A DNA stretch of 64,000 nucleotides from Chitinophagales bacterium (GTDB lineage: Bacteria > Bacteroidota > Bacteroidia > Chitinophagales > Chitinophagaceae). The stretch covers positions 1-64,000 of the forward strand of contig JAATFV010000065.1 in assembly GCA_015655015.1 (NCBI GenBank). Direction: 5' to 3'. Each line of letters starts with the position of its first letter. The first letter of the stretch is position 1. The notes under the pieces are model-generated. The model saw only the letters and a program-made list of their open reading frames with translations. It searched no databases and had not been told where the DNA came from. This document shows, piece after piece, positions 14,258 to 61,589 of the stretch. The translations under genes and the position numbers were made by a program.

Positions 14258-14280
14258 TAGTCTACAAAGTCTATAGAGTA
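14258..14280 (-). promoter_or_regulatory. Putative palindromic operator, copy 1 (YeiH)
   Basis: Left half TAGTCTACAA (9 of 10 to the consensus TAGTCTACTA), right half weaker (6 of 10). Same 23-bp span as the other copies. It lies 66 bp upstream of the YeiH start. Confidence 0.5.
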
Positions 14281-14379
14281 AATTTTTTAAAATATAATAT
14301 TGGTCCTATGAAATATCATATGGGTCATATGGCGATATAGTATAATGTAATAGGGCGGCATAGTATAATGTAACTGAGG

Positions 14380-14451
14380 CCGGAATTATCCCACTGGAAA
14401 TAACCGGAATCCGCCTACTGGAATTAACCAGGATCATCCCACCGGAAATAA
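14380..14451. repeat. 24-bp degenerate tandem repeat, three copies
   Basis: Units 14380-14403, 14404-14427 and 14428-14451 share the pattern CCGGAAT-n-CC-n-CTGGAA-n-TAA. They sit between the YeiH and SusC genes, just upstream of the SusC-side operator and promoter. Function unknown; it could be a multi-site binding region or a slippage-derived minisatellite. Confidence 0.75.
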
Positions 14452-14495
14452 TTAGTGGGAAAATATTTTTTTATATATTCCGCACACTGTACTTT

Positions 14496-14518
14496 TACTC
14501 TACTAAAATAGTAGACTA
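14496..14518 (+). promoter_or_regulatory. Putative palindromic operator, copy 2 (SusC)
   Basis: Halves TACTCTACTA and TAGTAGACTA around AAA, 19 of 20 to the consensus. It ends 28 bp before the SusC ATG at 14547 and would overlap or follow the transcript start, as expected for a repressor site. Confidence 0.65.
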
Positions 14519-14546
14519 ATTGATAAGGGTTCCAAAACAAACCAAC

Positions 14547-17500
14547 ATGACCAAAGCTGATTACCAGGGATATGGAAGATATTTTCTGATCGGAATACTG
14601 CCGCTATTGATCTTCTTTTCCGCCCGGGCGCAGAATAACAACAATCTCACCATCACCGGGAAGGTGTATGATGAAAAGACGGGAACAGGCTTGCCGGGAG
14701 CCACGGTGCACCTTAAAAACACTACCCACGAAGTGGTAACGGATAAAGACGGAGTATTCCGCTTTCTTACCGGGCAAAAATTACCGGTAGTGCTGATCGT
14801 CACCTACATCGGCTATCAGCAAAAGGAAATAACGGAAAATACTTCCCGTAATATCGACATCCCGCTGAAAGAAACCACCAGCCAGCTGAACGACGTGGTG
14901 GTCGTGGGGTATGGCACCCAGCGGAGAAGGGACCTTACCAGCTCCATCTCCACGATCAAGGCATCCGAAGTGACCAGCATCCCGGCAGCAAGCTTCGATG
15001 CCCTCTTACAGGGTAAAGCTCCGGGATTACAGATCAACTCCAATGCCGGCGTCCCGGGTGACGGGATCTTTGTACGGGTAAGAGGCACCACTTCCATCAA
15101 TGCAGATAATAATCCCCTCTATATCATCGACGGCGTATTTATCAACAACACCAGCCTGCAATCGGTCAATTCAGGAGGAAGATTCACTTCCCCGCTGGCG
15201 GATATCAATCCTTCCGACATCGAAAATATAGAAGTGCTCAAAGACGCCAGCGCCACCGCTATCTATGGATCACGGGGCGCCAACGGGGTCGTCATCGTTA
15301 CCACCAAAAGGGGCAATTTCAACGGAGGATCCAAATTGAACTTCGATGTATCCACCGGCTCGGCCTGGGCACCCAAGCTCTGGGACCTGACCACCGGCCC
15401 CCAGCACGCCACCCTGGTGAATGAATTCTATGCGAATTCCGAACAGGATGCCATCGCCGCTGGAGACAATGCCGGCATTACCAAATATAAAACAGCCCCT
15501 TTCACAGGAACCACCCTTAACCCCAGCGCTGCCACCGCCCGCGGCACCCCCGACTTGCAGCATACCTACGACCGCCTGCATGAACTATTCCGCACCGGTA
15601 ACCTGCAGAACTATAATCTTTCCCTGTCAGGAGGCAATAAAGAGACCCGGTATTATTTCGGCGGCGGATACACCCGGCAGGAAGCTGATATTAAGCCGCT
15701 TTATTTCGAAAGAGCCAGCTTCAAGCTGAATCTCGACACAAAAGTGAACGACAAGGTTACGGTAGGGGCCAGCAACAGCTTCTCCCGCAGTTTCAGGAAC
15801 CAGGGCAGGTCAGGGGATGGACCGGCAGGAGGACTGCTCCAGGCTGCCTTGCACACACCCACCTATCTGCCGGAAACGAATGCGGACGGCACACCGGCCC
15901 GATGGGCGGGTTTCGATAACCTGCAGGTCCTGCTCAACAATTACGATGTGCATACGATCAGCCTGCGTTATATAGGCAACCTTTACCTGGATGCCCAGCT
16001 CACCCGTGACCTGAAATTCCATAGCACCTTCAGCCTTGACTATAATAACTATAACGAATCCGAATACTGGAACAACCTCACCCAGCTGGGTGCGGCCCCT
16101 ACCAATGGACTGGCTACTTCCTCCATCACCCAGAACACTTCCTGGATCAATGAACAGACGCTTGCTTACCGCAAGAGCCTGAACAAACATACTTTCGGCG
16201 TTCTGATCGGAAATACCGTACAGAGCAACCAGGTCATCAGCACCTTTGCCCAGGGCAACGGATTCCCGAACAATTCCTACAAGGATATCTCCTCCGCAGC
16301 AACCCGCACTTCGAATGACTCTTCGAGAAAAGCTACCCTGGCTTCCTTTTTTGCCAGGATCGATTATAACTATGCCGGCAAATATTACCTGGAGCTGAGC
16401 GGCCGCGCAGACGGTTCTTCGAAATTCGGCGCCAATAACAAATGGGGTTACTTCCCTTCTGTCGGGGTCTCCTGGAGAGCCAAGGAAGAGAGCTTCCTGA
16501 AGAAAGTGGACTTTATCAGCGATCTGAAATTACGGGGCAGCTACGGGATCACCGGCAATCAGAACGGCATCAGCAATTTTGCCGCCCAGGGCCTTTGGTC
16601 CGGCGGTTACGGTTATCCCGACGGCAGCACCGGCGATCAGCCCGGCACCGCCCCCCTCCAATTGGGCAATCCCAACCTGAAATGGGAGCGAACCAGCCAG
16701 TCCAACCTGGGCCTGGACCTGGGATTGTTCAACGGCCGCATCAGTGTAGACTTCAATGTCTATTACAAATACACCAGTAATGTATTGCTCCAGCTGCCCG
16801 TGCCCGGCATCACCGGCTTCTCCAACTATTACAGCAATGCGGGAGAGATCAGCAACAAAGGATATGAATTGGGGATCAACACCATTAATTTCCGCAACGG
16901 GGACTTTACCTGGCAGACGAATTTCAGCATCTCCGGCAATGTCAATAAAGTGGAAAAGCTGCCAACCCCGATTTATCAGTACAATCGTAACTGGATCATC
17001 ATGCAGCAGGGATCTCCCATGTACTCTTTCTGGTTGTACAAACAGCTCTACGTAGATCCGAAGACCGGCGCTGCCGTTTTTCAGGGCGAGACAAATGGCA
17101 CTCTGCCCGTATCCGCCCGCCAGGTAATGCACAATGCCATGCCTAAATTTTTCGGAGGGATCAACAATACGTTCTCCTGGAGAGGGTTTGACCTGAGTGT
17201 CCTCTTCTCTTACGAATACGGCAATTATGTCTACAACCTGAACAAATTCTTCGGAGAAGGCGGCGGCACCCGGGACGCCAACCGGGTCATCTTTGCCGAT
17301 CAGCTCAACCGGTGGCAGAAACCGGGAGATATTACCAATGTACCGCGGGAGACAGCCTATGGACCGAACTACACCATCGATCAGAACAGCCGTTTCCTGG
17401 AGGATGGCTCTTTTATACGGCTCAAATCCCTCAATATCGGTTACACAATACCCCGCAGCCTGACCGCAAAGCTGAAGGTCGAAACGGTACGTCTTTATTT

Positions 17501-17648
17501 CGCCGGCACCAATTTACTCCTGCTGACGAAATATACCGGACCGGACCCCGAAGCCAATGTCACCGGGATCCAAACGATTCAGGGACTTGATCTTGGGACA
17601 CCACCCCAACCCCGCAGCGTACAGTTCGGCCTGAATGTCACCCTATAA
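14547..17648 (+). CDS. SusC/RagA-family TonB-dependent receptor (YeiH/DoxX locus)
   Basis: Outer membrane receptor of 1033 residues: signal peptide to about residue 28 (IGILPLLIFFSARAQN), carboxypeptidase-D-like domain about 33-115 (LTITGKVYDEKTGTGLPGAT), the linker LNDVVVVGYGTQRRRDLTSS, a plug with VLKDASATAIYGSRGANGVV, and a long barrel ending VQFGLNVTL. No STN domain. The start was moved from a TTG at 14520 to ATG 14547, which gives a normal signal peptide and leaves the operator at 14496-14518 untranslated. It precedes SusD and two DoxX-like membrane proteins and is divergent from a putative sulfate exporter that also has the palindrome. The ligand is unknown; a sulfur-containing compound is a reasonable guess. 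Confidence 0.92.
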   Translation: MTKADYQGYGRYFLIGILPLLIFFSARAQNNNNLTITGKVYDEKTGTGLPGATVHLKNTTHEVVTDKDGVFRFLTGQKLPVVLIVTYIGYQQKEITENTSRNIDIPLKETTSQLNDVVVVGYGTQRRRDLTSSISTIKASEVTSIPAASFDALLQGKAPGLQINSNAGVPGDGIFVRVRGTTSINADNNPLYIIDGVFINNTSLQSVNSGGRFTSPLADINPSDIENIEVLKDASATAIYGSRGANGVVIVTTKRGNFNGGSKLNFDVSTGSAWAPKLWDLTTGPQHATLVNEFYANSEQDAIAAGDNAGITKYKTAPFTGTTLNPSAATARGTPDLQHTYDRLHELFRTGNLQNYNLSLSGGNKETRYYFGGGYTRQEADIKPLYFERASFKLNLDTKVNDKVTVGASNSFSRSFRNQGRSGDGPAGGLLQAALHTPTYLPETNADGTPARWAGFDNLQVLLNNYDVHTISLRYIGNLYLDAQLTRDLKFHSTFSLDYNNYNESEYWNNLTQLGAAPTNGLATSSITQNTSWINEQTLAYRKSLNKHTFGVLIGNTVQSNQVISTFAQGNGFPNNSYKDISSAATRTSNDSSRKATLASFFARIDYNYAGKYYLELSGRADGSSKFGANNKWGYFPSVGVSWRAKEESFLKKVDFISDLKLRGSYGITGNQNGISNFAAQGLWSGGYGYPDGSTGDQPGTAPLQLGNPNLKWERTSQSNLGLDLGLFNGRISVDFNVYYKYTSNVLLQLPVPGITGFSNYYSNAGEISNKGYELGINTINFRNGDFTWQTNFSISGNVNKVEKLPTPIYQYNRNWIIMQQGSPMYSFWLYKQLYVDPKTGAAVFQGETNGTLPVSARQVMHNAMPKFFGGINNTFSWRGFDLSVLFSYEYGNYVYNLNKFFGEGGGTRDANRVIFADQLNRWQKPGDITNVPRETAYGPNYTIDQNSRFLEDGSFIRLKSLNIGYTIPRSLTAKLKVETVRLYFAGTNLLLLTKYTGPDPEANVTGIQTIQGLDLGTPPQPRSVQFGLNVTL

Positions 17649-17677
17649 AAATAAAACAAGACTAAATCATCGCTATC

Positions 17678-19045
17678 ATGCAAGCTCAAATAAAATATAG
17701 TTTTCTTTTTTTTCTCACTGTCACCCTGGTCTCCTGCAAGAAGTTCCTGGCTGTCCAGCCGGTAGATTATGTCTCCGACCAGGTCACCATCGTCGACGCT
17801 ACTTCGGCACAGACAGCTGTCCGGGGTGTATACAGGGCCCTGGCGAACGATAATTATTACGGCTCCCTCTTCCAGACCTTCGGGTACCTGCCCGGGGATA
17901 ATGTCCAGTGGACAGGGTCACAGTCTGTCATCCAACAATTCATCTCCCATAATATACAGGCGGATAATGGCAACCTGGAAAGCGTATGGCTGGGAATCTA
18001 CGCTACGATCAACGACGCTAACAATGTGATCGCGAAAGTCCCCGGTGTCGTCGATGTCACGTTCACGCCCGTATTGAGGAACCAGCTTATCGGGGAGGCC
18101 CGCTTCATACGGGCCCTGGCTTATTTCGATCTGGCGCGGGTATGGGGAGGCGTGCCTGTTGTACTGACCCCCACGCTGTCCTCAGCGGACAAGAGCAGCA
18201 CCGGCGTAAGCTCATCCGACCAGGTATACGCGCAGGTATTGAGCGATCTGAATGCAGCCGATTCCCTCTTGCCATTGCCAGCCACCCAGAATCCCGTCCG
18301 GGCTAACCGGGAGACGGTCTGGGCCCTGAAGGCGCGTTATTACCTCTACCAGCAGAAATGGGCGCTGGCGGAAAATTATGCCAGCCAGGTGATTGCAGAT
18401 ACGAAGAATTTTACCTTACTGACTCCTTATAGCTCCTTCTTTAATCCTGCCAGTGCGGTCGCCACCAAAGAATCCGTCTTTGAACTTTCCTATAGCCCTA
18501 CCTATACGAATGCTCACCGGGGTTATTGGCAGCCCCCGGCTAATGGAGGCACCCGGCAATGGGCGCCCAACGATGCTTTCGTAGCCCTGGTCAATGATCC
18601 AACGATCGGGGGCAACCGCAGCGCTCTGGTGGCAAAGACTTCGGCAGGTCTGTGGTACGGGAACTTATACTACCGCAGCCCGTCCACCGATCCGGCCTAT
18701 GTCATCCGTATCGCTGAACTCTACCTGATCCGTGCAGAGGCAAGGGCGCAGCAGAATAACCTGTCCGCAACAGATGGAGCCCTCAGCGATCTGAATGCCA
18801 TCCGTACCCGGGCCGGCCTGGGCGCCAGCCCCGCTGTTAACCAGACGGATGTGCTCCTGGCTATCGAAAATGAACGAAGGATCGAATTCGCACTGGAACC
18901 CCACCGCTGGTTTGACCTGGTGAGGACCGGCAGGGCCGCAGCCGTTCTGGGAGTGACCGATCCTAAAAAATACGTATTCCCATTTCCGGCAACGGAAGTG
19001 ACTTTGTCCAATGGTAATCTTCCGCAAAATCCCGGATACAATTAA
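17678..19045 (+). CDS. SusD/RagB-family lipoprotein
   Basis: A 455-residue surface lipoprotein with lipobox TLVSC (Cys20), the N-terminal SusD fold (FLAVQPVDYVSDQVTIVDATSA) and the C-terminal RagB signature (ALSDLNAIRTRAGLGAS, ENERRIEFALEPHRWFDLVRTG). It starts 30 bp after the SusC stop, so the two form a capture-and-import pair. At 455 residues it is on the short side for SusD, which would fit a small ligand rather than a long glycan, but this is weak evidence. Confidence 0.92.
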   Translation: MQAQIKYSFLFFLTVTLVSCKKFLAVQPVDYVSDQVTIVDATSAQTAVRGVYRALANDNYYGSLFQTFGYLPGDNVQWTGSQSVIQQFISHNIQADNGNLESVWLGIYATINDANNVIAKVPGVVDVTFTPVLRNQLIGEARFIRALAYFDLARVWGGVPVVLTPTLSSADKSSTGVSSSDQVYAQVLSDLNAADSLLPLPATQNPVRANRETVWALKARYYLYQQKWALAENYASQVIADTKNFTLLTPYSSFFNPASAVATKESVFELSYSPTYTNAHRGYWQPPANGGTRQWAPNDAFVALVNDPTIGGNRSALVAKTSAGLWYGNLYYRSPSTDPAYVIRIAELYLIRAEARAQQNNLSATDGALSDLNAIRTRAGLGASPAVNQTDVLLAIENERRIEFALEPHRWFDLVRTGRAAAVLGVTDPKKYVFPFPATEVTLSNGNLPQNPGYN

Positions 19046-19073
19046 CCCCCCAACCCCTTGAAAGGGGAGGGCT
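19046..19073. repeat. C-run/G-run palindromic repeat (REP-like)
   Basis: CCCCTTGAAAGGGG (19054-19067) flanked by further C and G runs, starting just after the SusD stop. A related element occurs at 22235-22260. Such short intergenic palindromes are common in Bacteroidota and may stabilise mRNA ends. No T-run follows. Confidence 0.6.
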
Positions 19074-19098
19074 GAAATAAACTTTTAAATCTTATGCC

Positions 19099-49678: not shown

Positions 49679-49701
49679 TAGTCTACTAAATTTGTAGGAT
49701 A
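49679..49701 (+). promoter_or_regulatory. Putative palindromic operator, copy 3 (SusC)
   Basis: Left half TAGTCTACTA is a perfect match; right half TTGTAGGATA matches at 7 of 10. It occupies the -18 to -40 region directly upstream of the -7 box at 49703. Confidence 0.6.
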
Positions 49702-49765: not shown

Positions 49766-52700
49766 ATGAGAAAAATGACATTCCTCCTGCCTTTATTCCT
49801 GTTCCTTTTCGTAGGTAGTATCATCCGGGCGCAGGACCGGGGTACCTCCGGCAAGACTGCGGATACCCCCCGCATTTCTTCCGACACGGTTCCGTCCCGG
49901 TTCAATAACAACCTCGATTCCGTATTCGTTACTACCGCGCTGGGCATCAAAAGGAGCCGGAACTCGCTTCCCTACGCTACCCAGCAGGTATCTGCCGCGG
50001 AATTGAACAGGACCCCGAATACCAATTTTATCAACAACCTGTCCGGCAAAGTGGCCGGCCTGCAGGTCACGGCCAGCAATGCCCTGGGGGGCAGCTCCAA
50101 TGTGATCTTACGGGGTTCCAAATCCCTGACACAATCCAACCAGGCGTTATTCGTCGTGGACGGCGTTCCCTATGACAACAGTACACAGAATCAGGGCGGT
50201 TATGATCTGGGCAATCCGGCCTCTGATATCAACCCGGACGACATAGAATCGGTTACTGTTTTGAAAGGGGCCGCAGCTTCTGCGCTCTATGGCTCCCGGG
50301 CGGCCAACGGGGTGATCGTGCTTACCACTAAAAAGGCCAATCCTAAAAACAAGAAGCTGGGCATCACGGTCAGCCAGAGCACCCAGGTAGGTTCCATCGA
50401 CCGGAGCACCCTTCCAAAATACCAGACACAGTACGGACAGGGGTATGGGAGCGCCGGGGCTACTTCTCCGGACGGTTATTTCTATTATCAGCCGGCCGTC
50501 GGCAGCGGCGGGCAGCCGGTCAGCATCGTAGAGACAGATGAGGACCAGGTCTGGGGATCCGCTTATAATCCCAATTTAAAGGTTTATAACTGGGATGCCT
50601 TTTCCCCGGGTAATCCCAATTATGGGAAAGCCACACCCTGGGTCGCCGCACCGCATCACAATGCCACCGATTTCCTCGTAACGCCCGTCACTTCTGTTAC
50701 CAGCGTATACATCGACGCAGCCAATGATAATTCCAGTGTCAAAGCCGGCTATTCGAACAGCTATGATAAAGGCGTCCTGCCGAACAGCAACATCAAAAAG
50801 ACTTCCCTGAACCTCAATCTCAGCTATAATCTCAGCTCCCGGCTCACCCTGGGCGGCCTGATCAGCTATACCGATGAGAACGGGCTCAACAGGAGCAGCT
50901 ATGATTTTCGCGCCACCAATACCGCGATCCGCGACTTTCGCCAATGGTGGCCTACCAACGTGGACCTACATGCGCAAAAAGCGGACTATTTCCGGACACG
51001 CACCAATAATTCCTGGAATATCCTGGGGGGATATGCCACCGCCGCTCCGGGCAATCTACCCAAGGCGGCTTACCACAACAATGCCTACTGGACCCAGTAT
51101 GAGAATTACAATAATGACTCCCGTCAGCGGTATTTTGGTAATATCAGCCTGAACTATAAGATCACGGATCATGTCAATCTGCTGGGTCGTGTATCGAAAG
51201 ACAGCTACGATCAGCTTTTCGAGACCCGTATTGCCGTGGGATCTTATCAGACACCATCTTATAGCAAATACCTGGGTAATTTCTCCGAGACGAATTATGA
51301 CCTGTTGCTGAACTATGACCAGGATCTCGGCCATGGCCTCAACCTGAAGGCCCTGCTGGGCGGGAATGTACGGCAGAATGTGAACTCCTCCACTTCGGAC
51401 GCTACGAGCGGAGGGCTGGTGGTCCCTCATTTCTATTCCCTGTCCAATTCCGTCAAAACTCCCAATGCCCCCACGGAACTCTACGGCCGAAAAGAAGTGG
51501 ATGGAATTTTCGCCGGCGCCACCCTCAGCTACAAAGAGCTGCTGACCCTGGACGCCACTCTCCGGAGGGACCAGAGCTCGACCCTGCCCAACAGCAATAA
51601 GACCTACTATTATCCGGCAGTATCGGGTAACTTCCTGTTCAGCCGGCTGCTGCCCGATCTCAGCTGGCTGTCTTATGGGAAGTTAAGAGCCAACTACGCA
51701 GAAGTCGGTAACGATGCCCCGCTCTACAGCACACAAAATACCTATTCCGCCGGTACGCCTTTCAATGGCCAGACCCTGTTCACCTATACAACGACCAATA
51801 ACAATCCCAATCTCGTTCCGGAAAGGAACAGATCTTATGAGGTGGGTGTTGAAGCGTCTTTTCTGCATAACCGGATTGGATTCGATCTTACGTACTACCA
51901 GTCAAGGCTGATCAATCAGATCACTCCGATCATTCCATCGGCCGCCTCGGGTTTTACCCAGTTCTATGTCAACGGGGGGACCGTGCAGAATCGCGGGTTT
52001 GAGCTAAGTGTCAATGCCGTTCCCATCCGGACAAAAGACTTCAGCTGGAATATCCTGCTGAACTGGAGCAAGAACAACAACAAAGTATTGTCTCTCTATA
52101 ACAATCAACCCTCTTACACCATTGCCTCCTATCAGAACGCCATCCAGCTGGTGGCCGAAACGGGGAAGTCCAGCGGGATCCTCCGGGGAACAGATTATAA
52201 ATATGTCAACGGACAAAGGCTGATCGATGCAGCAGGTTACCCCGACAGCCTTACAAAGGCCGACATCGGCGATATCAACCCGGATTGGCTGGGGGGCATC
52301 ACCAACAGCTTCCGGTATAAGAACTTTTCTTTCAGCTTCCTCATAGATGTCCGGCAAGGCGGGGATGTCTATTCTCTCGACATGGACTATGCTTCCTGGT
52401 CGGGCGTAATTCCGGAGACTGCCGGAAACAACAGCCAGGGCAAACCGGTACGAAGCCCCGTCAGCCAGGGTGGGGGACTGGTGTTGCAGGGAGTGACGTC
52501 AGACGGCAAGCCGAATACGACCCCGGTAGATATATCCGATATTAATAAAGCCAGTAAATTTCCTTTCGGCTCCATCAACAGCATTGCCGCAAAGACCTAT
52601 GTCTATGATGCCAGTTATGTCAAGCTAAGAGAAGTAGCTCTCACGTGGTCCCTGCCCGATGGTGTGCTGGGTAAAGCAAGCTTTGTCAGGGGAGTGGACT

Positions 52701-52894
52701 TTTCGCTGACCGGAAGGAACCTCTGGATCATCCACAAGAATCTGCCTTACGCCGACCCGGAACAGGGAGCAGCCTCGACGACTCCCACCTCCAGCGCCCC
52801 GATCGTTTATAATCCCAATGCCTCCATCGGTTATCAGACGGGCGTTTATCCCAGTGTCCGGACCTTCGCTTTTAACGTTAAACTGAAATTCTAA
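49766..52894 (+). CDS. SusC-family receptor without the N-terminal carboxypeptidase-D domain
   Basis: A 1042-residue TonB-dependent receptor. After the signal peptide (LLPLFLFLFVGSIIRAQ) only about 30 linker residues precede the plug (LDSVFVTTALGIKRSRNSLP, then VLKGAAASALYGSRAANGVI). Ordinary SusC proteins carry a carboxypeptidase-D-like domain at that point. The barrel ends FAFNVKLKF. It forms an operon with a SusD-like lipoprotein and a small exported protein, under the palindrome operator and a clear promoter. An orphan carboxypeptidase-D-like protein with the same operator lies 6 kb downstream (59207-59686). The ligand is unknown. Confidence 0.92.
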   Translation: MRKMTFLLPLFLFLFVGSIIRAQDRGTSGKTADTPRISSDTVPSRFNNNLDSVFVTTALGIKRSRNSLPYATQQVSAAELNRTPNTNFINNLSGKVAGLQVTASNALGGSSNVILRGSKSLTQSNQALFVVDGVPYDNSTQNQGGYDLGNPASDINPDDIESVTVLKGAAASALYGSRAANGVIVLTTKKANPKNKKLGITVSQSTQVGSIDRSTLPKYQTQYGQGYGSAGATSPDGYFYYQPAVGSGGQPVSIVETDEDQVWGSAYNPNLKVYNWDAFSPGNPNYGKATPWVAAPHHNATDFLVTPVTSVTSVYIDAANDNSSVKAGYSNSYDKGVLPNSNIKKTSLNLNLSYNLSSRLTLGGLISYTDENGLNRSSYDFRATNTAIRDFRQWWPTNVDLHAQKADYFRTRTNNSWNILGGYATAAPGNLPKAAYHNNAYWTQYENYNNDSRQRYFGNISLNYKITDHVNLLGRVSKDSYDQLFETRIAVGSYQTPSYSKYLGNFSETNYDLLLNYDQDLGHGLNLKALLGGNVRQNVNSSTSDATSGGLVVPHFYSLSNSVKTPNAPTELYGRKEVDGIFAGATLSYKELLTLDATLRRDQSSTLPNSNKTYYYPAVSGNFLFSRLLPDLSWLSYGKLRANYAEVGNDAPLYSTQNTYSAGTPFNGQTLFTYTTTNNNPNLVPERNRSYEVGVEASFLHNRIGFDLTYYQSRLINQITPIIPSAASGFTQFYVNGGTVQNRGFELSVNAVPIRTKDFSWNILLNWSKNNNKVLSLYNNQPSYTIASYQNAIQLVAETGKSSGILRGTDYKYVNGQRLIDAAGYPDSLTKADIGDINPDWLGGITNSFRYKNFSFSFLIDVRQGGDVYSLDMDYASWSGVIPETAGNNSQGKPVRSPVSQGGGLVLQGVTSDGKPNTTPVDISDINKASKFPFGSINSIAAKTYVYDASYVKLREVALTWSLPDGVLGKASFVRGVDFSLTGRNLWIIHKNLPYADPEQGAASTTPTSSAPIVYNPNASIGYQTGVYPSVRTFAFNVKLKF

Positions 52895-54397: not shown

Positions 54398-54889
54398 ATG
54401 TCATCACCGATCAATCAGAAAATGAAAAGCGTTTTCATTGCCTTTGCCGTATCCTCCCTTGCCTTCCAGGGACTGGCTCAAAAGGCTCCCGCAAAAGCCG
54501 GCGCTACGGGCAGTACCAGCGCAACCGCGGCCGCTGAATATTTCGCCGTCGAAGATTATTACCGGGTAAAATGGGGTTATGCCGATGAATTCATCGCCTT
54601 GTGGAAAGCCAATCACTATCCTTTGCTGAAAAAGGCGCAGGAAAAGGGAGATGTGATCAGCATCAAGGCAGAATCCCCCCGTCTTCATGCCGGCGAAGAC
54701 ACCCGCTGGGATTTCCGGGTCACCGTAGTTTTCAGGACGGCGGCGCTGGCCTTCGATGAGAACCTGACGGCTCCCTATAAAAAAGAGCTTTATCCGGACC
54801 AGGCTGCGTTCGGAAAAGCCGAACAACACCGGTTTGAGATCTTATTATCTCATTGGGATGTTGAGGTAGCCGGAATACCCCTGGAATAA
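54398..54889 (+). CDS. Small exported protein, possible ferredoxin-like fold
   Basis: A 163-residue protein with signal peptide (VFIAFAVSSLAFQGLAQ) and an Ala/Thr/Gly-rich linker. The mature part VEDYYRVKWGYADEFIALWK and WDFRVTVVFR resembles dimeric alpha-beta barrel (Dabb/NIPSNAP-like) proteins, but I cannot place it in a named family. It follows SusD by 49 bp and is probably translated from the same mRNA, so it may bind or process the imported ligand in the periplasm. Confidence 0.6.
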   Translation: MSSPINQKMKSVFIAFAVSSLAFQGLAQKAPAKAGATGSTSATAAAEYFAVEDYYRVKWGYADEFIALWKANHYPLLKKAQEKGDVISIKAESPRLHAGEDTRWDFRVTVVFRTAALAFDENLTAPYKKELYPDQAAFGKAEQHRFEILLSHWDVEVAGIPLE

Positions 54890-54984: not shown

Positions 54985-55007
54985 TACTCTACTAATTTTG
55001 TAGACTA
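54985..55007 (+). promoter_or_regulatory. Putative palindromic operator, copy 4
   Basis: TACTCTACTA and TTGTAGACTA around ATT, 9 of 10 in each half. It lies 45 bp upstream of the TTG start at 55053. Confidence 0.6.
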
Positions 55008-55052: not shown

Positions 55053-56165
55053 TTGAAATTATTTCTGAGTTTCGTACTTATTCTCAGCTGTATACATGTA
55101 CATGCTCTCGGCTGGCCGACGGCAGCGGCTATATCCGGGATGGACTCCCTTTTGCCTGTCCGGAACAGCTACCATCAAAACGACGAGATGTCCTCCGATC
55201 TGCTGGATGCCGAAACGGATTATACGACAACAGGAGACGACCTAAAGGCCCTTACCCGCCTGCTGAGAATATTGAGGATGAAAAAGATCAACCGGGAGAG
55301 CAGGGTAGGGTACCGGTTCTTCAACGACCTCGCGGCTGTTTCTGTCCGGCTTAAATTATATCCCCTGGCTATGAAATGTTATTCCAAAGCCCTGGAATAT
55401 AAGAAGGTTACGCTGACGCCCTGGTATAAAGTCCCTGTAATTATTACTCCCGGCCTCCCGGCTGCGGACGCAGAACAGGCTCTCCCCATATTAGATAGTA
55501 CCGCCTATGCCGGGCTGGAAAATACGGATACATCATATCAGACCCTTCCCACGTCCGCCTATACCGCTAAATCTTTACCTATACCGGGCCAGCAGATATG
55601 GTCTTCTTTCGACGACGGCAAACCTGCTTCTTCCTATGCCATGATCGTTCACGTAAAACAACCCGTCTCCGGACGACGAAGATCCTTCACCCATATCAAT
55701 AATGTGGGGCATATGTTCATCACACTGATCAAATACAATAACGATAATTCGGTAGTATCCCGATCATTCGGTTTTTACCCGCTCAAGAATAATATTCTTT
55801 CAGCCACTCCACTCCATGCCGGTTCCTCGTCTGTTTTCAAAAATGATACCCTCCACGACTGGGATGAAGTGGTGGGAAAATTTATTTCCTATAAAAGATT
55901 CAGTAGAATCATCGAGGTCATAAAATACTACGATCACCTCACCTATAACCTCAACCGGAATAATTGCACCGATTTCGGACTGGCCCTGGCATCGATCGGC
56001 GGGATCAGCATCACGGAGACAAAGGGTTCCTGGCCCCTGGGCAAAGGCAACAACCCCGGAAATGCCGGGCAAAGCATGCTGGAAGGCAAATTCCGGAATA
56101 TAGATGCCGACTATCACGGGCCGTTGTTCGTCAGCAACAACATCCAGGCGCCTGCAGGCCGCTAA
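55053..56165 (+). CDS. Exported protein with papain-like His/Cys motifs (unknown family)
   Basis: A 370-residue protein with signal peptide MKLFLSFVLILSCIHVHA. The only in-frame start giving it is TTG at 55053. Two motifs, GHMFITL (His220) and NRNNCTDFGLAL (Cys305), fit a permuted NlpC/P60-like or Lnb/DUF4105-like papain fold where His precedes Cys. Helical repeats occupy the N-terminal 130 residues. It is preceded by the palindrome at 54985 and lies downstream of the SusC/SusD operon. A peptidase, amidase or acyltransferase role is possible; none is shown. Confidence 0.6.
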   Translation: MKLFLSFVLILSCIHVHALGWPTAAAISGMDSLLPVRNSYHQNDEMSSDLLDAETDYTTTGDDLKALTRLLRILRMKKINRESRVGYRFFNDLAAVSVRLKLYPLAMKCYSKALEYKKVTLTPWYKVPVIITPGLPAADAEQALPILDSTAYAGLENTDTSYQTLPTSAYTAKSLPIPGQQIWSSFDDGKPASSYAMIVHVKQPVSGRRRSFTHINNVGHMFITLIKYNNDNSVVSRSFGFYPLKNNILSATPLHAGSSSVFKNDTLHDWDEVVGKFISYKRFSRIIEVIKYYDHLTYNLNRNNCTDFGLALASIGGISITETKGSWPLGKGNNPGNAGQSMLEGKFRNIDADYHGPLFVSNNIQAPAGR

Positions 56166-56230
56166 AGAGTTCCTTAAATGCATACCATCCGGGTCTCCCC
56201 CGGGTAACCTTTGTTACTATTTAATAATCA

Positions 56231-56297: not shown

Positions 56298-56305
56298 AGC
56301 TTGTC

Positions 56306-56752
56306 ATGAAGTTGACGCATAAAATTTCGAACTGGGGTGATCAGCATCATCCCAAGATCCTGGATGTGCTTCGAATGGTGTTGGGACTTTTTTTAGTTGT
56401 CAAAGGAATTATTTTTTTAAACAATGCCGGATATCTACGATACCTGATCATTGATCATCAAGCCATCAACCAACCTCCGGGAGTCATAACTGCAATCATT
56501 TATTATGTGACCTATGTGCATGTACTGGGCGGCGCCCTTATCTTTTTGGGGCTTTATACGAGATTGTGGGCCCTCCTGCAATTTCCTGTGGTATTTGGAG
56601 CCGTATTTTTCGTGAACATCACCTCTCCCTATGTTAATTCCGAGCTCTGGCTGTCGGTCCTCGTACTTACGCTATTGTGCCTCTTCATCATTATTGGGTC
56701 CGGGCCTTTATCACTCGACCGCCTTTTGGCAAACAGTAAATCGAGGGATTAA
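56306..56752 (+). CDS. DoxX family membrane protein
   Basis: A 148-residue protein with four hydrophobic segments, matching the DoxX family (VLRMVLGLFLVVKGIIFL, YYVTYVHVLGGALIFLGLYTRLWALLQFPVV). Small DoxX proteins are widespread and poorly characterised; some are tied to oxidative or sulfur stress. It is a separate unit from the two larger DoxX-like genes at 19-22 kb. It has its own promoter, flanked by a 16-bp inverted repeat. Confidence 0.85.
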   Translation: MKLTHKISNWGDQHHPKILDVLRMVLGLFLVVKGIIFLNNAGYLRYLIIDHQAINQPPGVITAIIYYVTYVHVLGGALIFLGLYTRLWALLQFPVVFGAVFFVNITSPYVNSELWLSVLVLTLLCLFIIIGSGPLSLDRLLANSKSRD

Positions 56753-56816
56753 TACCCCGGGATTTGGAAGATATTCAGGCAACCAACCGCTGCATTGCCG
56801 GGCGTATTTTATTGTT

Positions 56817-57713
56817 TTAGTGAGTTCCGTAATTTTTTTCACCGGCAGTCACTGCTAACGGCAAGACATTTTGCCGGGGAGGTAATGGGCAGGTGGCATA
56901 ATTCGTAAACGCACAGGGAGGATTATAGGCTTTGTTAAAATCGATGATAGTGGTGCCGTCTTTCCCCGGCTTTTTTACAGATAAGAACCTCCCCGATGGA
57001 TAGGTCGTGTTGCCGCTGGTCTCGTCAGCAAAAATGATAAATAGCTCGTCGCCTTCTTCCAGGGCATCCAGGGTATATTGTTTGTTATTTACGGTAAAAA
57101 CCAGTTTTCCTGGTGTCTGCTGTTGACTGGTCTGCCCGAGGATATTCGTGATGGCAATGCTCCGGGGCTGCCCTTCTGCTTGCAGCGCGGCTTGTACCCT
57201 CCAGCCGGGATCGATGGAATAACGATCGATATCTTTAAAATGGGTCGCAAGCGGACTTTCCAGGTCTCTGAGGCGCACTCCGATCTTATCATCCCGCCGG
57301 ATGATCGTCCATCGTAAGCTGCCGGAGGAGACCACAGGAGGACGGAGCGAATCACCGCCGAAGATCACCGCTTCTGTGACAGGTTGATCATTTACCTTTA
57401 TAGCTGTATTGTTTTGGACTACGAGTTTTACCGTATTGCCGGTACGTTCAAAATAACCCGCCGCTTCGGCAATAGTCCCTTTCGGGAAAATGATTTTGTT
57501 TTGCCGCCCGCTCCCAAAACTGTTTTTTCCTTCATCCAGCCAGTACAGACCGACAAGATTCAGCCAGCCGTTGGCCGCTTTAAGGTTCTGTATTCTTTTG
57601 GTATGCCAGCTTTCTATTTCCTGTTGATAAGCCGGAACGGCTTGTGCATAGATGCCCGTGCCAAATAACAGGCAGTACAGGCTGGCGGTCAGCACGTAAC
57701 AATATTTTTTCAT
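56817..57713 (-). CDS. DUF1684 domain-containing exported protein
   Basis: A 298-residue exported protein (signal peptide YVLTASLYCLLFGTGIYAQA). The core YQQEIESWHTKRIQNLKA, GWLNLVGLYWLDEGKNSFG and C-terminal FADETSGNTTYPSGRFL, DFNKAYNPPCAFTNYATCPLPP match DUF1684, a family of unknown function with conserved cysteines near the end. Start ATG 57713 chosen over the longer frame. A degenerate version of the palindrome lies at 57763-57784. It converges on the DoxX gene. Confidence 0.85.
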   Translation of the reverse strand: MKKYCYVLTASLYCLLFGTGIYAQAVPAYQQEIESWHTKRIQNLKAANGWLNLVGLYWLDEGKNSFGSGRQNKIIFPKGTIAEAAGYFERTGNTVKLVVQNNTAIKVNDQPVTEAVIFGGDSLRPPVVSSGSLRWTIIRRDDKIGVRLRDLESPLATHFKDIDRYSIDPGWRVQAALQAEGQPRSIAITNILGQTSQQQTPGKLVFTVNNKQYTLDALEEGDELFIIFADETSGNTTYPSGRFLSVKKPGKDGTTIIDFNKAYNPPCAFTNYATCPLPPRQNVLPLAVTAGEKNYGTH

Positions 57714-57762
57714 TATTTTACAGGTTATGGTATATAAATGGCTATAAATGTATTGATTTTTA

Positions 57763-57794
57763 TAGTCTATAAAAATGTAGACAAAAATGTAGAC
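57763..57794 (-). promoter_or_regulatory. Degenerate palindrome copy upstream of DUF1684 gene
   Basis: TAGTCTATAA (8 of 10) with ATGTAGACAA one base closer than in other copies, followed by a second ATGTAGAC. It lies 50 bp upstream of the start codon. Weak match; may be a diverged or alternative site. Confidence 0.3.
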
Positions 57795-57832
57795 AAAAAT
57801 AAAAAGACATGTTTCGCTTTTATACGCATATG

Positions 57833-57857
57833 AAAAAAAGCGGTGTAGACACACCGC
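57833..57857 (-). terminator. Intrinsic terminator after the 91-residue gene
   Basis: On the reverse strand a perfect 7-bp stem (GCGGTGT 57840-57846 with ACACCGC 57851-57857) is followed by seven T (57839-57833). Confidence 0.75.
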
Positions 57858-57916
57858 CTCTAACGACTACATGCAATGAAAATAACAGCATTTAATGGGT
57901 TGAAAAAAGAATTTTG

Positions 57917-58192
57917 TCATAGCAAAGGCGTCCTTTTTTCCCGGATCACCGTAAAAGAATATTTCTTTCCCGTTCTGTTGGCTGCCCGGGATACAGCGCC
58001 ATTTACATCCAGTAGGGAAATATTGCCGTGAAGATTATATTCAGTGGGACCGACCGGATATTTTCCGCCCTTGCTCCGGGATGTATTCACTCTTTTAAAA
58101 GATTCCCTTTCCATCTCGATATCTAACTTTTCAAGATCGGTTGGCTGCGCTCCCTGGAGCTGTACCCTTGTAATAAATGTATGGATTGCCAT
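57917..58192 (-). CDS. Small protein, possible DUF2622/GhoS-like fold
   Basis: A 91-residue cytoplasmic protein: TFITRVQLQGAQPTDLEKL, MERESFKR, EYNLHGNISLLDVNGAVSRAANRTGKKYSF. The order resembles small Bacteroidota proteins of the DUF2622 type, a ferredoxin-like fold related to the GhoS/Cas2 RNases, but similarity is by eye only. It lies between the dioxygenase gene and a strong terminator, and may be co-transcribed with the dioxygenase. Confidence 0.5.
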   Translation of the reverse strand: MAIHTFITRVQLQGAQPTDLEKLDIEMERESFKRVNTSRSKGGKYPVGPTEYNLHGNISLLDVNGAVSRAANRTGKKYSFTVIREKRTPLL

Positions 58193-58252
58193 TGGATTAA
58201 ATTTTATAAGAAGGATTTAAATAATTGATTCATGGTACAGGAGGCCAGGCTG

Positions 58253-59128
58253 TCAGGCCGCCCATTTTTTCTTCCTGGATTTTAACAGGGAAAGGACCGT
58301 TTTGTTCCCGGGCCGGTTTAGGGCAAGCTGTCCCAGCTTATGATAAAAAGGAGTGGAGCTATGGACCGTTTTAGGGCGGTAGGCGCCGGTGATAATAGGA
58401 ATATACATCACCCTTCGCCGGCTTGTTTCCCCTTCGAATGGAGACTGCTGCACCCGATGCCACAAACGGCCATCATGCACGGTCAGATCGCCTGCTTCGA
58501 TATTAAATCCAACCTCCCGCTTGTCGGGAGTATGATCGATAAAATATTTCTTTCGGAATAACAGCCTGAACAACCCCTGTTCATGTGTACCCGGCAATAC
58601 CCGGAGGCCGCCGTTCTCATAAGGGCAGTCATCCAGGTGAAGGCCCACATTCAGCATGGGCCGGATCCGGCTGCCGAGGAAAAGATCCCTGGGACTGTCC
58701 GTATGCCATCCTAATTGCGTAAAGGCGCTGGTCCCGGTGTTGACATAATGATTCACTACCAGCCCGTCCTTTTCATTTTCTCCGATCCTGCCCTCATAAT
58801 TCCCCAGGAATTGTGTCAGCACCTTCAGGCGGGGATCCTGTAAGAACTCCTTAAGTACAGGAGAATAATGAGAGGCAAAGGCAATACGCTGGATCAGGGA
58901 GGACCCGTCCGTATCATGACCGAATTTCAGCGGTATCCCATTCACCTTGGTAATGTTATTGGATAGTAAATACTGTTCGGCGCTCTTGATCTCCCTGATA
59001 AACAAGGTCAGCGTTTCCCTGTCGATAAAATTCCTGAACTGGATAACTCCATGTGTATGAAAATACTGTAAATGTGTATTGGTCAGATTTTTCCCCAGTC
59101 GAAAAATACCGGGCATCACTTTGTCCAT
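58253..59128 (-). CDS. Phytanoyl-CoA dioxygenase (PhyH) family protein
   Basis: A 291-residue Fe(II)/2-oxoglutarate-dependent oxygenase. The iron triad is His142-x-Asp144 (GWHTDSPRDL) and His224 (GRLWHRVQQSP), with the 2-oxoglutarate arginine in ETSRRRVMYIP. The fold-defining MLNVGLHLDDCPYENGGLRVLPGTH is typical of PhyH proteins. The substrate cannot be read from the sequence; the family hydroxylates lipids, amino acids and small metabolites. No signal peptide is present, so it is cytoplasmic. It sits among exported proteins of unknown function. Confidence 0.85.
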   Translation of the reverse strand: MDKVMPGIFRLGKNLTNTHLQYFHTHGVIQFRNFIDRETLTLFIREIKSAEQYLLSNNITKVNGIPLKFGHDTDGSSLIQRIAFASHYSPVLKEFLQDPRLKVLTQFLGNYEGRIGENEKDGLVVNHYVNTGTSAFTQLGWHTDSPRDLFLGSRIRPMLNVGLHLDDCPYENGGLRVLPGTHEQGLFRLLFRKKYFIDHTPDKREVGFNIEAGDLTVHDGRLWHRVQQSPFEGETSRRRVMYIPIITGAYRPKTVHSSTPFYHKLGQLALNRPGNKTVLSLLKSRKKKWAA

Positions 59129-59206
59129 ATTAGTGTTTTTAGTTAATGAAGATGGCTCATTGAAAATCCATCGGTTTCGTAAGACGGCTCATCGGTTACC
59201 GGGCGG

Positions 59207-59686
59207 TCAGAGCGGTTGCAAGGTCACATAGTATTCCGTAGCCCTGGTGATAGGCACCTCCTGGGCCTTATACCCTTCTGCCGTGATTACCAATACCTTG
59301 TCTCCCGGTTTGATAAGGAGCGTAAAAGTCCCGTCCACCTGTGTGCCGGTTATATTCTTAGTCCCCTTTACCAGTATTCCCGCACCTTCCAATGGCGAAG
59401 ACGAATCACCGGCAGTGACCTTCCCGTTAATGACGATCTCTTTGCTCTGGCCGGATGTATCCTGGTTTTGACCGGATCTATCATGATCGTTGCCAGATGT
59501 ATACTGGTCTTGGCCGGGTCTGACCTTATTTTGGCCGGACATATCGGGCAGACTTTGCAGAGACAGGCCCTGCCGGCAGAGAACGGATGACCCATGCAGG
59601 TCACGGGCATATAAAGTCTTACAATAGCAGGTCGTTGCAAGCAGCAGCAGGACAGCGACCAGGGATTTTAAGGAGTATAAATGCAT
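59207..59686 (-). CDS. Orphan carboxypeptidase-D-like regulatory domain protein
   Basis: A 159-residue exported protein. A signal peptide (SLKSLVAVLLLLATTCYC) is followed by five 7-residue repeats of the DxSGQNx type and then one carboxypeptidase-D-like domain (EIVINGKVTAGDSSSPLEGAGILVKG) ending TRATEYYVTLQPL, exactly where a SusC would go on to its TonB-box linker. It could be a relic of a SusC gene, or a free-standing version of the domain missing from the SusC at 49766. A perfect palindrome (59699-59721) lies 12 bp before its ATG. Confidence 0.7.
   Translation of the reverse strand: MHLYSLKSLVAVLLLLATTCYCKTLYARDLHGSSVLCRQGLSLQSLPDMSGQNKVRPGQDQYTSGNDHDRSGQNQDTSGQSKEIVINGKVTAGDSSSPLEGAGILVKGTKNITGTQVDGTFTLLIKPGDKVLVITAEGYKAQEVPITRATEYYVTLQPL
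59441..59545. repeat. 21-bp tandem repeat, five copies, within the orphan domain gene
   Basis: Five in-frame 21-bp units (starts 59441, 59462, 59483, 59504, 59525) encode a 7-residue Ser-Gly-Gln-rich repeat between the signal peptide and the folded domain. Confidence 0.8.
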
Positions 59687-59698
59687 GTCTGATTCTTT

Positions 59699-59721
59699 TA
59701 GTCTACTAAATTAGTAGACTA
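59699..59721 (-). promoter_or_regulatory. Putative palindromic operator, copy 5 (perfect)
   Basis: Perfect 10-bp arms TAGTCTACTA and TAGTAGACTA around AAT; this is the best copy in the window and defines the consensus. It lies 12 bp upstream of the reverse-strand ATG at 59686 and 64 bp from the sigma factor start at 59786. Confidence 0.75.
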
Positions 59722-59762
59722 AATTGACTTGAACAAATATTTTATCGGTTAAATTTATATAT

Positions 59763-59785
59763 TTGTCTACTAATTGAATAGATTA
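59763..59785 (+). promoter_or_regulatory. Putative palindromic operator, copy 6 (sigma factor)
   Basis: TTGTCTACTA (9 of 10) and GAATAGATTA (7 of 10) around ATT. It abuts the sigma factor ATG at 59786, so binding would cover the start of the gene. Confidence 0.5.
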
Positions 59786-60385
59786 ATGAGTAGCAGGCTC
59801 TCATCAGGAACGAACAGGCGGTCTAATTTGTCCGGGGCACCGGAAAAAGACCTGGTATGGGAATTGAAATCCGGTTCGGCTGCTGCTTTCGGAGAGATAT
59901 ACGACCGATATTGGAAAATATTACTGGCCATAGCCTTTAACCGGCTGGCTGACCGCCAGGCTTCCGAAGAAGCCGTGCAGGAAGTCTTTCTCAGCTTATG
60001 GGCACGCCGGGAAGATGTGCTGATCGAATCCCTTCCCGCATATCTCGCCACTGCCGTTAAATTCACCGTCTTCCGTCAATTGCTGAATGAAAAAAGACGG
60101 AAAAACCTCCTGGAGCAGAATTATCATCCGCACAAAGAACAATTTGAAGAGACAAAAATATACGGTAAATTCCTGGAAGAATATATTCAGGGCATCGTAG
60201 AGAAGCTTCCCGAAAAATGCAGACTGGTCTTTAAATACAGCCGGGAAGAAGGAATGACCCTCCCGGAGATCGCCAAAGAAATGAACATCTCCGTTAAGAC
60301 TGCCGAGGCTCATCTTACCAAGGCGCTCAAAACCCTCCGTGGCTCCCTGAAAAGATCCGGTTTGTTCATATGGATCTTCTTCTGA
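59786..60385 (+). CDS. ECF RNA polymerase sigma factor (second cassette)
   Basis: A 199-residue ECF sigma factor: region 2 (FGEIYDRYWKILLAIAFNRL, EEAVQEVFLSLWARREDV) and region 4 (LPEKCRLVFKYSREEGMTLPEIAKEMNIS, VKTAEAHLTKALKTLR). ATG 59786 was chosen over a TTG at 59774 because it gives a normal N-terminus. It precedes a FecR gene and an STN-SusC gene, the standard cell-surface signalling set. The operator at 59763-59785 suggests a second layer of control above the sigma/anti-sigma switch. Confidence 0.9.
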   Translation: MSSRLSSGTNRRSNLSGAPEKDLVWELKSGSAAAFGEIYDRYWKILLAIAFNRLADRQASEEAVQEVFLSLWARREDVLIESLPAYLATAVKFTVFRQLLNEKRRKNLLEQNYHPHKEQFEETKIYGKFLEEYIQGIVEKLPEKCRLVFKYSREEGMTLPEIAKEMNISVKTAEAHLTKALKTLRGSLKRSGLFIWIFF

Positions 60386-60481
60386 TTTACCGGCTTTCAT
60401 CTTCTCCCGATATTTTTTTTTACACCCACTAAGGGTAAATAGAGAGCCAGGATACGTATTGTCTAAAGACAATAGTAACTG

Positions 60482-61546
60482 ATGGAAAGATCATCCCTAT
60501 ATCATTTAATAGAAAAATATTTCAATAACGAATCCACGCCGGAAGAAGAGTCGGCCCTGATGACCTGGTACCGTCTCGCGCACCGGGACACCGTGGAATG
60601 GCCCTCCGCTTACCCCGATGAAGAACAGCAGGTAAAGGCAAGGATGTTACAATATATAGAAACCCGGAGAACACCGGCCTCATCTATAGAACGAATAACC
60701 CCATCCGTAAAAATAACCCCGCTTGCTAAAATAACCGAACCCGCCAAAATAACCCCGCCTGTTAAAACAACCCCGTCCGTTAAAAGGATACCTATCAAAA
60801 GAGGACTTGTCGCAGCAGCCCTGTTATTCGTCATCTGCACTTCTGCATTTTTCTTCCTCCGGCGTAGCGACCCTGCTGCCGGCGGGTGGGTAACCCTGAA
60901 CAGCCCAGCCGGGAAAATACAAAAGATCGGCCTGCCGGATGGATCGGAAGTATGGCTGAATGCCAATAGCCAGCTACGGTATAGGAAGGATTTCTCCGCC
61001 AAACGGGAAATAGAGCTGGAAGGCGAGGCGTTTTTCAAAGTCAGCCCTGCAAACAGCCGCCCCTTCCTGGTACGAAGCCGGGGCATTTTAACACAAGTAC
61101 TGGGAACCGCCTTTAACATCGATGCCTATAAAAATGAGCCGCTGCTCCATATCTCTGTACAAAGCGGTAAAATAGCGGTGAAAGAACTAAAAACGGGTAA
61201 CGCTCAGGCTGTATTGACGGCCGACCAGGAAATGGCTTATGATGTGGTGTCTTCCCGGATGGAGATCAGAAAAGCCCCCGCAGGAAACAGCTCCTGGATC
61301 AACGGCAAATGGCAGTTCGAAACAGCCACCATGGAAGAGATAACCGGCTTATTGGAAAACTGGTATGGCGTCCATTTCTCCTTTGCGAGCAATGCGCTGC
61401 GATCCTGTCAGTATACAGCTACTTTCGATAATACCATCCGGCTGAAGGACCTGCTTACCCTCTTATGCGACATCAACAATATCCATTTCACCATCGATGA
61501 GACCAACCGGACAGTCACACTTTCCGGGAAAGGATGTCCGGGATAA
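60482..61546 (+). CDS. FecR-family anti-sigma factor (second cassette)
   Basis: A 354-residue inner membrane protein: cytoplasmic part (about 1-100), a Lys/Pro/Thr-rich linker of six-residue repeats just before the membrane segment (LVAAALLFVICTSAFFFLR), then a periplasmic FecR domain (LPDGSEVWLNANSQLRYRK, ELEGEAFFKVSPANS) and C-terminal DUF4974-like part. The linker is encoded by 18-bp tandem repeats (60692-60781). It should control the ECF sigma factor in response to the following STN-SusC. Confidence 0.9.
   Translation: MERSSLYHLIEKYFNNESTPEEESALMTWYRLAHRDTVEWPSAYPDEEQQVKARMLQYIETRRTPASSIERITPSVKITPLAKITEPAKITPPVKTTPSVKRIPIKRGLVAAALLFVICTSAFFFLRRSDPAAGGWVTLNSPAGKIQKIGLPDGSEVWLNANSQLRYRKDFSAKREIELEGEAFFKVSPANSRPFLVRSRGILTQVLGTAFNIDAYKNEPLLHISVQSGKIAVKELKTGNAQAVLTADQEMAYDVVSSRMEIRKAPAGNSSWINGKWQFETATMEEITGLLENWYGVHFSFASNALRSCQYTATFDNTIRLKDLLTLLCDINNIHFTIDETNRTVTLSGKGCPG
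60692..60781. repeat. 18-bp tandem repeat, five copies, within the FecR gene
   Basis: Units start at 60692, 60710, 60728, 60746 and 60764 and encode KITPxA/V-type hexapeptides on the cytoplasmic side of the membrane segment. Confidence 0.8.
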
Positions 61547-61566
61547 GAGGATTTTTTTTGAGTTAA

Positions 61567-61589
61567 AACCCTACTAAAATGATAGACTA
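61567..61589 (+). promoter_or_regulatory. Putative palindromic operator, copy 7 (STN-SusC)
   Basis: AACCCTACTA (7 of 10) and TGATAGACTA (8 of 10) around AAA, 14 bp before the SusC ATG at 61604. Confidence 0.5.

Follow-up and report, generated by a model that had tools for sequence, protein, structure and literature searches.

What reads the 23-bp palindromes that precede genes for importers, a sigma factor and a putative exporter in a 64,000-nucleotide stretch of a Chitinophagales genome (assembly GCA_015655015.1, contig JAATFV010000065.1, positions 1 to 64,000), and what do these genes have in common? The whole stretch, below called the window, is contig C199 of a draft genome of 8.1 Mb in 259 contigs. 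A sequence-only reading of the window had described the palindromes as one regulon under a dimeric regulator encoded elsewhere, with sulfur as a guess for the signal. Our analysis indicates that in Chitinophagaceae and Chryseobacterium-like genomes the palindrome likely serves as the operator of a global regulon for sulfur (cysteine) limitation, which would be repressed by a dimeric Rrf2 protein when sulfur is sufficient.

For scanning we used a symmetric matrix of 66 sites, 52 from relatives and 14 from the own genome. At 8 bits or more it returned exactly seven sites in the window, the same seven copies that had been reported before, and no match of at least 8 bits was obtained in 2 Mb of simulated first-order Markov sequence. 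Four of the seven belong to the training set of the matrix, while those at 14258, 59763 and 61567 lie outside it. A matrix made of the 14 own sites only found the same seven at 10 bits or more, and a consensus search allowing up to three mismatches matched four of the seven copies versus none in 100 dinucleotide shuffles. The operators, listed without strand, are:

14258–14280: operator, 21.3 bits, 65 bp upstream of a YeiH gene on the minus strand
14496–14518: operator, 30.5 bits, one mismatch, upstream of a SusC gene (14520–17648), 28 bp to the ATG at 14547
49679–49701: operator, 27.8 bits, 64 bp upstream of a SusC gene (49766–52894)
54985–55007: operator, 31.9 bits, 45 bp upstream of a gene for 370 amino acids (aa) at 55053–56165
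59699–59721: operator, 38.5 bits, best copy, perfect 10-bp arms, 12 bp to a CarboxypepD-like gene
59763–59785: operator, 22.2 bits, second site at the start of an extracytoplasmic function (ECF) sigma gene, 0 bp to the ATG at 59786
61567–61589: operator, 17.3 bits, weakest real copy, 14 bp upstream of a TonB/SusC receptor gene (61604)

The earlier description of these seven thus stands: none is inside any window gene, all are close to start codons, and the copy with perfect arms has the top score. The site at 59699 lies between the divergent CarboxypepD-like gene (59207–59686) and the ECF sigma gene. The copy at 59763 overlaps the TTG taken as the ECF start in the list of open reading frames (ORFs), the ATG coming after the site. 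Judged by eye, the sequence shared among the window sites is restricted to the 23 bp. An eighth, degenerate copy claimed at 57763 was dropped, because its half-sites are one base closer (GTCTAC-N6-ATAGAC) and it scores below 8 bits.

Outside the window, the pattern at up to three mismatches occurred 14 times in the own genome versus none for the reversed pattern. The own-genome matrix scan covered the window, the stretches around matches and those along contig C129, 447,892 bases in total, and gave 22 distinct sites of at least 17 bits, seven of them in the window. Those elsewhere with an assigned target are, all at 17 bits or more:

C88, C185, C196 and C133:7132: before ECF sigma genes
C84: before an ECF sigma gene, with a tRNA-like sequence in between
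L017:9898 (C189): flanked by a TonB receptor/SusD-like/sulfatase locus and an ECF gene
C217, C113, C133:18914 and C129:30963: before TonB receptors, the last one in the sulfate operon
C174 and C248: before tRNA-Cys genes, the C248 site also serving a divergent gene for 371 aa
C133:5656 and C171: before genes whose role is unclear

The sulfate operon comprises cysH, cysD, cysN, a cobA-type methylase gene, cysJ-like and cysI-like genes, a TonB receptor gene and a sirohaem synthase-TauE gene, with sites at L023:9964 (27.4 bits), 17894 (16.3) and 10107 (13.2); the weaker site of 16.3 bits stands upstream of cysH. Its last-named product (L023:5489–7138) joins the N-terminal domain of sirohaem synthase to a TauE exporter. 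Sulfate assimilation, sirohaem synthase/TauE, a sulfatase locus and tRNA-Cys are what the genome-wide scan proposed in the sequence-only reading and the cross-genome scan place downstream of the sites, and these targets support its sulfur guess. Nor is the motif equally common inside genes or upstream of unrelated genes, which had been named as grounds for giving up the regulon: of 103 sites of at least 17 bits in the own genome and the related loci examined, four are inside an ORF called from its longest start and one has no downstream start. A 31.1-bit site at C101:5265 (L019:5265) lies where two genes converge and is downstream of a cysteine-synthase/desampylase-like/MoeB-like cluster, but a clear target gene or tRNA was not found at it.

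We then compared 98 genomes of the family, nearly one per genus. The motif, at up to one mismatch, was present in 35 of them, and the control pattern occurred once each in four. Genes that stand behind the operator in relatives include cysH/D, cobA and those for sirohaem synthase/TauE, peroxiredoxin, PhyH and SrpI-encapsulin. A domain scan of 90 of the 115 site-adjacent proteins (relatives only, one long protein excluded; counts refer to the 25 commonest of 55 families) gave CarboxypepD_reg-like 26, Plug 21, CobA-type methylase 8, AhpC/TSA 8 (1-Cys peroxiredoxin domain 5), 3'-phosphoadenosine-5'-phosphosulfate (PAPS) reductase/CysD domain 4, PhyH 4, NIR_SIR 3, fatty-acid hydroxylase 3, TauE 2 and SrpI 1, and the SusC/RagA model was matched by 20. 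In one locus (L228, 6070–10114) the operator is flanked on one side by genes for SrpI and a cysteine-desulfurase-like enzyme and on the opposite side by that for a cysteine-synthase-like PALP enzyme; in another (L213, 9166–12001) PhyH adjoins the operator, and an SrpI-like type 2A encapsulin follows with a desulfurase-like enzyme a few genes behind.

Which protein would bind these sites? The own genome has one match to PF02082 in 8.1 Mb, and it shares its contig with the sulfate operon:

C129:3350–3760: Rrf2 protein, 136 aa, PF02082 121.8 bits (cut-off 30)

It belongs to the Rrf2 superfamily (TIGR00738, 119.6 bits, cut-off 73.3), and the solved structures related to it are of Rrf2 proteins, CymR and IscR among them. 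Cysteines 91, 100, 103 and 108, spaced C-x8-C-x2-C-x4-C, do not vary across 129 aligned rows, of which 114 are distinct. High-scoring Rrf2 proteins, meaning those above about 105 bits among the matches listed, were found in 34 of the 35 motif genomes versus 31 of the 63 others (p = 3e-7, uncorrected for relatedness or genome size).

Linkage to the sites was followed in 20 of the 35 motif genomes, nine of them selected for having motif and Rrf2 on one contig; the proteins at these 20 loci are 54–87% identical to the own Rrf2. In seven, Rrf2 lies shortly upstream of cysH-cysD-cysN, and sites of at least 14 bits are present in the cluster in six of these seven (none in G006); in G066 a site stands 59 bp upstream of the Rrf2 gene itself. 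Among named Rrf2 loci (the best 80 of 493 relatives, mostly Chitinophagaceae and Chryseobacterium), sites of at least 14 bits were detected in 35 of the 38 with sulfur-assimilation genes, that is Cys, CobA or sirohaem synthase/TauE homologues, versus none of the 42 without, one of which holds a sulfatase homologue. The association also follows the identity of the Rrf2 protein. In one other genus Rrf2 is 68–70% identical to the own protein, with a site of 17–23 bits alongside in five of five; in G370 the values are 65% and 26.9 bits. No site of at least 10 bits was present in the 3.4-kb locus examined in five genomes with a best Rrf2 of 48–55% identity, and G309 (53%) has weak sites alone, of 11–13 bits. 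On these grounds the single Rrf2 protein of the genome is very probably the regulator, in agreement with the earlier proposal of one regulator, encoded outside the window, that joins SusC loci and YeiH.

The position of the sites relative to promoters bears on the mode of action. The −7 box of Bacteroidota is TAnnTTTG. We surveyed 138 site-gene pairs, and 51 boxes were found within −20 to +40 of the site centre in a run without a shuffled control; the preferred positions were +24/+25 (17), −16 (9) and −3/−4 (10). Boxes at +23 to +26 occurred in 20 rows, with a TTTG inside the palindrome 19–20 bp earlier in 12 of the 20, and in the nine −16 rows the left edge of the site, TTGTC, completes the −7 box. 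In the window, the operator at 49679 is directly followed by the −7 box TATCTTTG, a second box (TAAATTTG) being within the site, and the operator at 59763 overlaps a −7-like box. The operator thus covers the −33 or the −7 box in pairs with recognisable boxes, and because of this overlap the Rrf2 protein most likely acts as a repressor.

Computation supports the sites, their positions and gene content, the linkage and co-occurrence with the Rrf2 subfamily and, in the recognisable pairs, the overlap with promoter boxes; DNA binding by Rrf2, its dimerisation and repression rather than activation we infer. With sulfur sufficient, an Rrf2 dimer would bind the operator and block the −33 or −7 box. 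When sulfur is short the repressor would leave, which would allow expression of the genes for sulfate reduction and sirohaem synthesis, of sulfatases, of SusC/D importers together with the ECF sigma factors that belong to them, and of YeiH, peroxiredoxin and the additional tRNA-Cys. The signal may be cysteine, or may act through an iron–sulfur (Fe-S) or metal centre that the four cysteines would hold.

Several observations weigh against a sulfur operator read by this Rrf2 protein. Between the own Rrf2 gene and the closest operator there are 27 kb, a matrix scan of the Rrf2 locus (L051) found no operator near the gene, and the gene adjoins dapB, an arrangement shared by many relatives that have no sites nearby. 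One motif genome (G023) has no high-scoring Rrf2 among the matches listed, and half of the genomes without the motif (31 of 63) do have one. With the own-site-only matrix at 12 bits the division of named Rrf2 loci is less clean, 36 of 38 versus 3 of 42. Several own sites precede ECF/TonB(SusC) loci without known sulfur function, and before two Cys/Met pyridoxal-phosphate (PLP) enzymes and a MetX-like hydrolase (metX/Y) there is a weak site alone, of 14.4 bits and at a distance of 331 bp. The −3/−4 box can be part of the palindrome itself, and the 51 boxes lack a shuffled control. The draft genome is 97% complete with 5.85% contamination. A looser pattern (two mismatches) matched the own genome 54 times versus 69 for its control; the weak matches are therefore mostly chance, and matrix-supported sites alone were used. 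As a finder of regulon members the loose pattern was rejected, some of its matches being coding and low-scoring (8.2 bits in L040, 3.6 in L050). Phylum-wide, the motif was found in 12 of 296 genomes (29 sites) and the reversed control in 10 of 296 (12 sites). Since the control is nearly as frequent by genome, the motif is informative only through its concentration in one family and one genus: the motif genomes are seven of 11 of the family, four of five of one other genus and one more, and nine of the ten matches outside the family fall in that genus, which is probably Chryseobacterium because of its Rrf2 identity.

Three other explanations can be set against this background. With the same genes and operator, Rrf2 might activate or only modulate, or might sense the iron–sulfur or redox state rather than sulfur. 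The four invariant cysteines would fit an Fe-S or metal sensor, peroxiredoxin-like proteins adjoin sites, and some Rrf2 proteins respond to iron or to nitrite/nitric oxide (NO), according to the available part of PMC1274295. We regard this as unlikely, for the operator covers the promoter boxes where these are recognisable instead of lying upstream of the promoter, and the common theme of the operator genes is sulfur acquisition. A different protein might read the operator, Rrf2 being merely a neighbour of cys genes; the absence of a site next to the own Rrf2 gene and the many motif-negative genomes with a high-scoring Rrf2 would agree with that. This too seems quite improbable to us, given the linkage in several genera with the G066 site just before Rrf2, the identity threshold across families (65–70% with an adjoining site, 48–55% without), and the absence of helix-turn-helix regulators from the 25 commonest families encoded beside the sites. 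Finally, the palindromes might be SusC-linked repeat elements of no regulatory meaning, as the 20 site-adjacent SusC/RagA proteins could suggest; such elements would hardly share the 23 bp only, be nearly always intergenic, and be kept across genera before cys genes and tRNA-Cys, and we give this explanation almost no credence.

The unexpected part of the sulfur regulon is its tRNA-Cys members. Strong operators stand upstream of two of the three tRNA-Cys genes of the own genome: the one at C174:3224 (34.4 bits) ends 32 bp before C174:3278–3349 (L022), and the one at C248:120520 (34.7 bits) ends 110 bp before C248:120652–120723 (L015:8653–8724). The canonical tRNA-Cys (C248:77449) has no site within the 4 kb examined. 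In relatives, tRNA-Cys genes of a second class lie 61–413 bp behind sites in seven loci (L215, L237, L253, L304, L311, L358, L370) and 641–1965 bp behind them in three (L114, L241, L290). Counting sites of at least 13 bits and identical tRNAs once, with classes sorted by sequence and flanks mostly of about 1–1.5 kb, 13 of 25 second-class tRNA-Cys have an upstream site versus 0 of 36 canonical copies, and chance was rejected as the reason. Eight of the 25 had been found via the motif; of the other 17, six have a site (p = 5e-4 versus 0 of 36), namely two of the six from motif genomes and four of the 11 that tRNA searches alone had turned up.

All four second-class members scanned exceed the gathering score of 29 of RF00005 (L022 49, L015 56.2, L237 54 and L301 48.3 bits). 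In 19 sequences, 12 of 20 cloverleaf pairs change on both sides, and covariation was 0.454 versus 0.218 in shuffled alignments, none of 500 shuffles (which ignore relatedness) being as high; pair 1-72 is unpaired in 10 of the 19. U73 is kept in 12 of 25, U33 is lost in six of 25, and G1-C72 is present in one of 25 (two if the 73-base L215 sequence is shifted by one), whereas all three features are kept in 34 of 34 strictly canonical tRNA-Cys. The GCA anticodon is kept in 25 of 25, but ARAGORN calls tRNA-Cys by that triplet. U73 and GCA are given as the major determinants for cysteinyl-tRNA synthetase (CysRS) in the part of PMC9976931 available to us, and the accessible text of PMC8762117 reports that some methanogens have tRNA-Cys with A73 or G73. 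The second class as a whole does not have the bacterial tRNA-Cys identity (U73 plus GCA). We tentatively raise the possibility, which we hold to be somewhat doubtful, that the regulon deploys a dedicated class of tRNA-Cys-like molecules that spare cysteine under sulfur starvation and are not ordinary cysteine carriers: they might read Cys codons with another residue, act as a CysRS decoy or feed a tRNA-dependent enzyme. The operator-linked genes may also simply boost tRNA-Cys.

Small genes accompany this class. Proteins of about 100–116 aa are encoded between operator and tRNA in L237 (6047–6367), L304, L311, L302 (where the operator has just 11.1 bits) and L370; the one scanned, from L237, is CarboxypepD_reg-like, and small CarboxypepD-like genes lie upstream of several second-class tRNA-Cys. 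In L304 a Cys/Met PLP enzyme is encoded downstream of the tRNA. At C84:36267 (L018:9268–9490) a 34.6-bit operator is followed by a degenerate tRNA-like sequence, by eye without GCA, and then by a conserved 3' element that includes a hairpin resembling a terminator. This element (TTTTTCATATGGCAAGCAATCGTTAGAGG, a hairpin and a T-run) is located at the 3' ends of many small genes (e.g., L022:3366, L018:9445, L314–L353). Its core ATGGCAAGCAATCG is exact in 66 of the 98 family genomes, and the 35 contexts listed include many unrelated gene ends, so that a sulfur-specific small RNA was rejected; an Rfam scan of 18 loci matched nothing except tRNA. In the window, a hairpin (CGTTAGAGGCGGTGTGTCTACACCGC) with a T-run at 57800–57870 on the minus strand, behind a gene for 91 aa, resembles the terminator part of this element.

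The window genes next to or near the operators are:

12819–14192, minus strand: YeiH-family (PF03601) putative exporter, Pfam 159.9 bits
14520–17648, plus strand: SusC-type TonB receptor
49766–52894, plus strand: SusC-type TonB receptor, SusD-like gene next
54398–54889, plus strand: 163-aa protein without family, 68% identical homologue in a YeiH/PhyH cluster with operators (L257)
55053–56165, plus strand: 370-aa protein without family match, DoxX gene next
58253–59128, minus strand: PhyH-type dioxygenase, homologues of 51–67% identity near operators
59207–59686, minus strand: orphan CarboxypepD_reg-like protein, of a small type that recurs under the operator
59774–60385, plus strand: ECF sigma factor, then an anti-sigma-like gene and a TonB receptor gene, both read from sequence

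Homologues of the window YeiH, which scores 72.4 bits, under the TIGR00698 cut-off of 232.6, accompany sulfur-regulon genes at 63–64% identity in L119 and L257. Those of PhyH adjoin the operator in L213, L225, L241 and L257 and are one gene further in L228. In L257 homologues of the YeiH, 163-aa and PhyH genes occur together in one cluster with operators.

The results supply in one step an operator, a likely regulator and a gene set for sulfur control in Bacteroidota. They suggest that orphan SusC/D loci, like the unnamed genes (YeiH, PhyH, the 163-aa gene and the small CarboxypepD-like genes), have a function related to sulfur, and they join global nutrient control to import gated by ECF and anti-sigma factors. 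The tRNA-Cys members raise the testable question of whether bacterial decoding or charging with cysteine is altered when sulfur is scarce. Our search of the open-licence PMC literature found no description of this operator regulon and no master regulator of sulfur metabolism described in Bacteroidota; the term Bacteroid is absent from the available part of PMC5424206.

We take the system to be a novel form of cysteine regulon under Rrf2-type control. In enterobacteria, CysB and Cbl of the LysR family exert a likewise global control of sulfate and organosulfur use, but they are of another protein family and act by activation, in contrast to the repression proposed here. The closest parallel is CymR, the master repressor of cysteine metabolism in Bacillus and Staphylococcus with CysK as sensor partner (PMC2940859, as far as available). 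The own Rrf2 has the same fold and is similar to the CymR structure 2y75 (E 4.4e-13); genes for sulfur acquisition, which lie behind the sites, are its putative targets. Unlike CymR, it carries four invariant cysteines, its matches to 2y75 and 3t8r end at residue 91, and its gene set includes TonB/SusC, ECF sigma, YeiH, encapsulin and tRNA-Cys; at 69.9 bits versus an equivalog cut-off of 195 (NF047409) it is not a CymR. The Fe-S, iron or NO sensors IscR, RirA and NsrR are of the same superfamily, and the NsrR palindrome gATGyAT-N5-ATrCATc, as given in the available part of PMC1274295, spans 19 bp, equal to GTCTAC-N7-GTAGAC here. Membership was rejected for IscR (TIGR02010, 70.2 bits versus 207.55), NsrR (NF008240, 40.4 versus 182) and RirA (NF008886, 56.5 versus 193), from which the own Rrf2 also differs in cysteine spacing, site sequence and gene set. 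In the cyanobacterium Synechococcus, sulfur starvation upregulates SrpI and its desulfurase, according to the accessible part of PMC8049743, which does not name the regulator; the phylum is unrelated, and the same pair adjoins the operator in L228 and follows a few genes behind it in L213.

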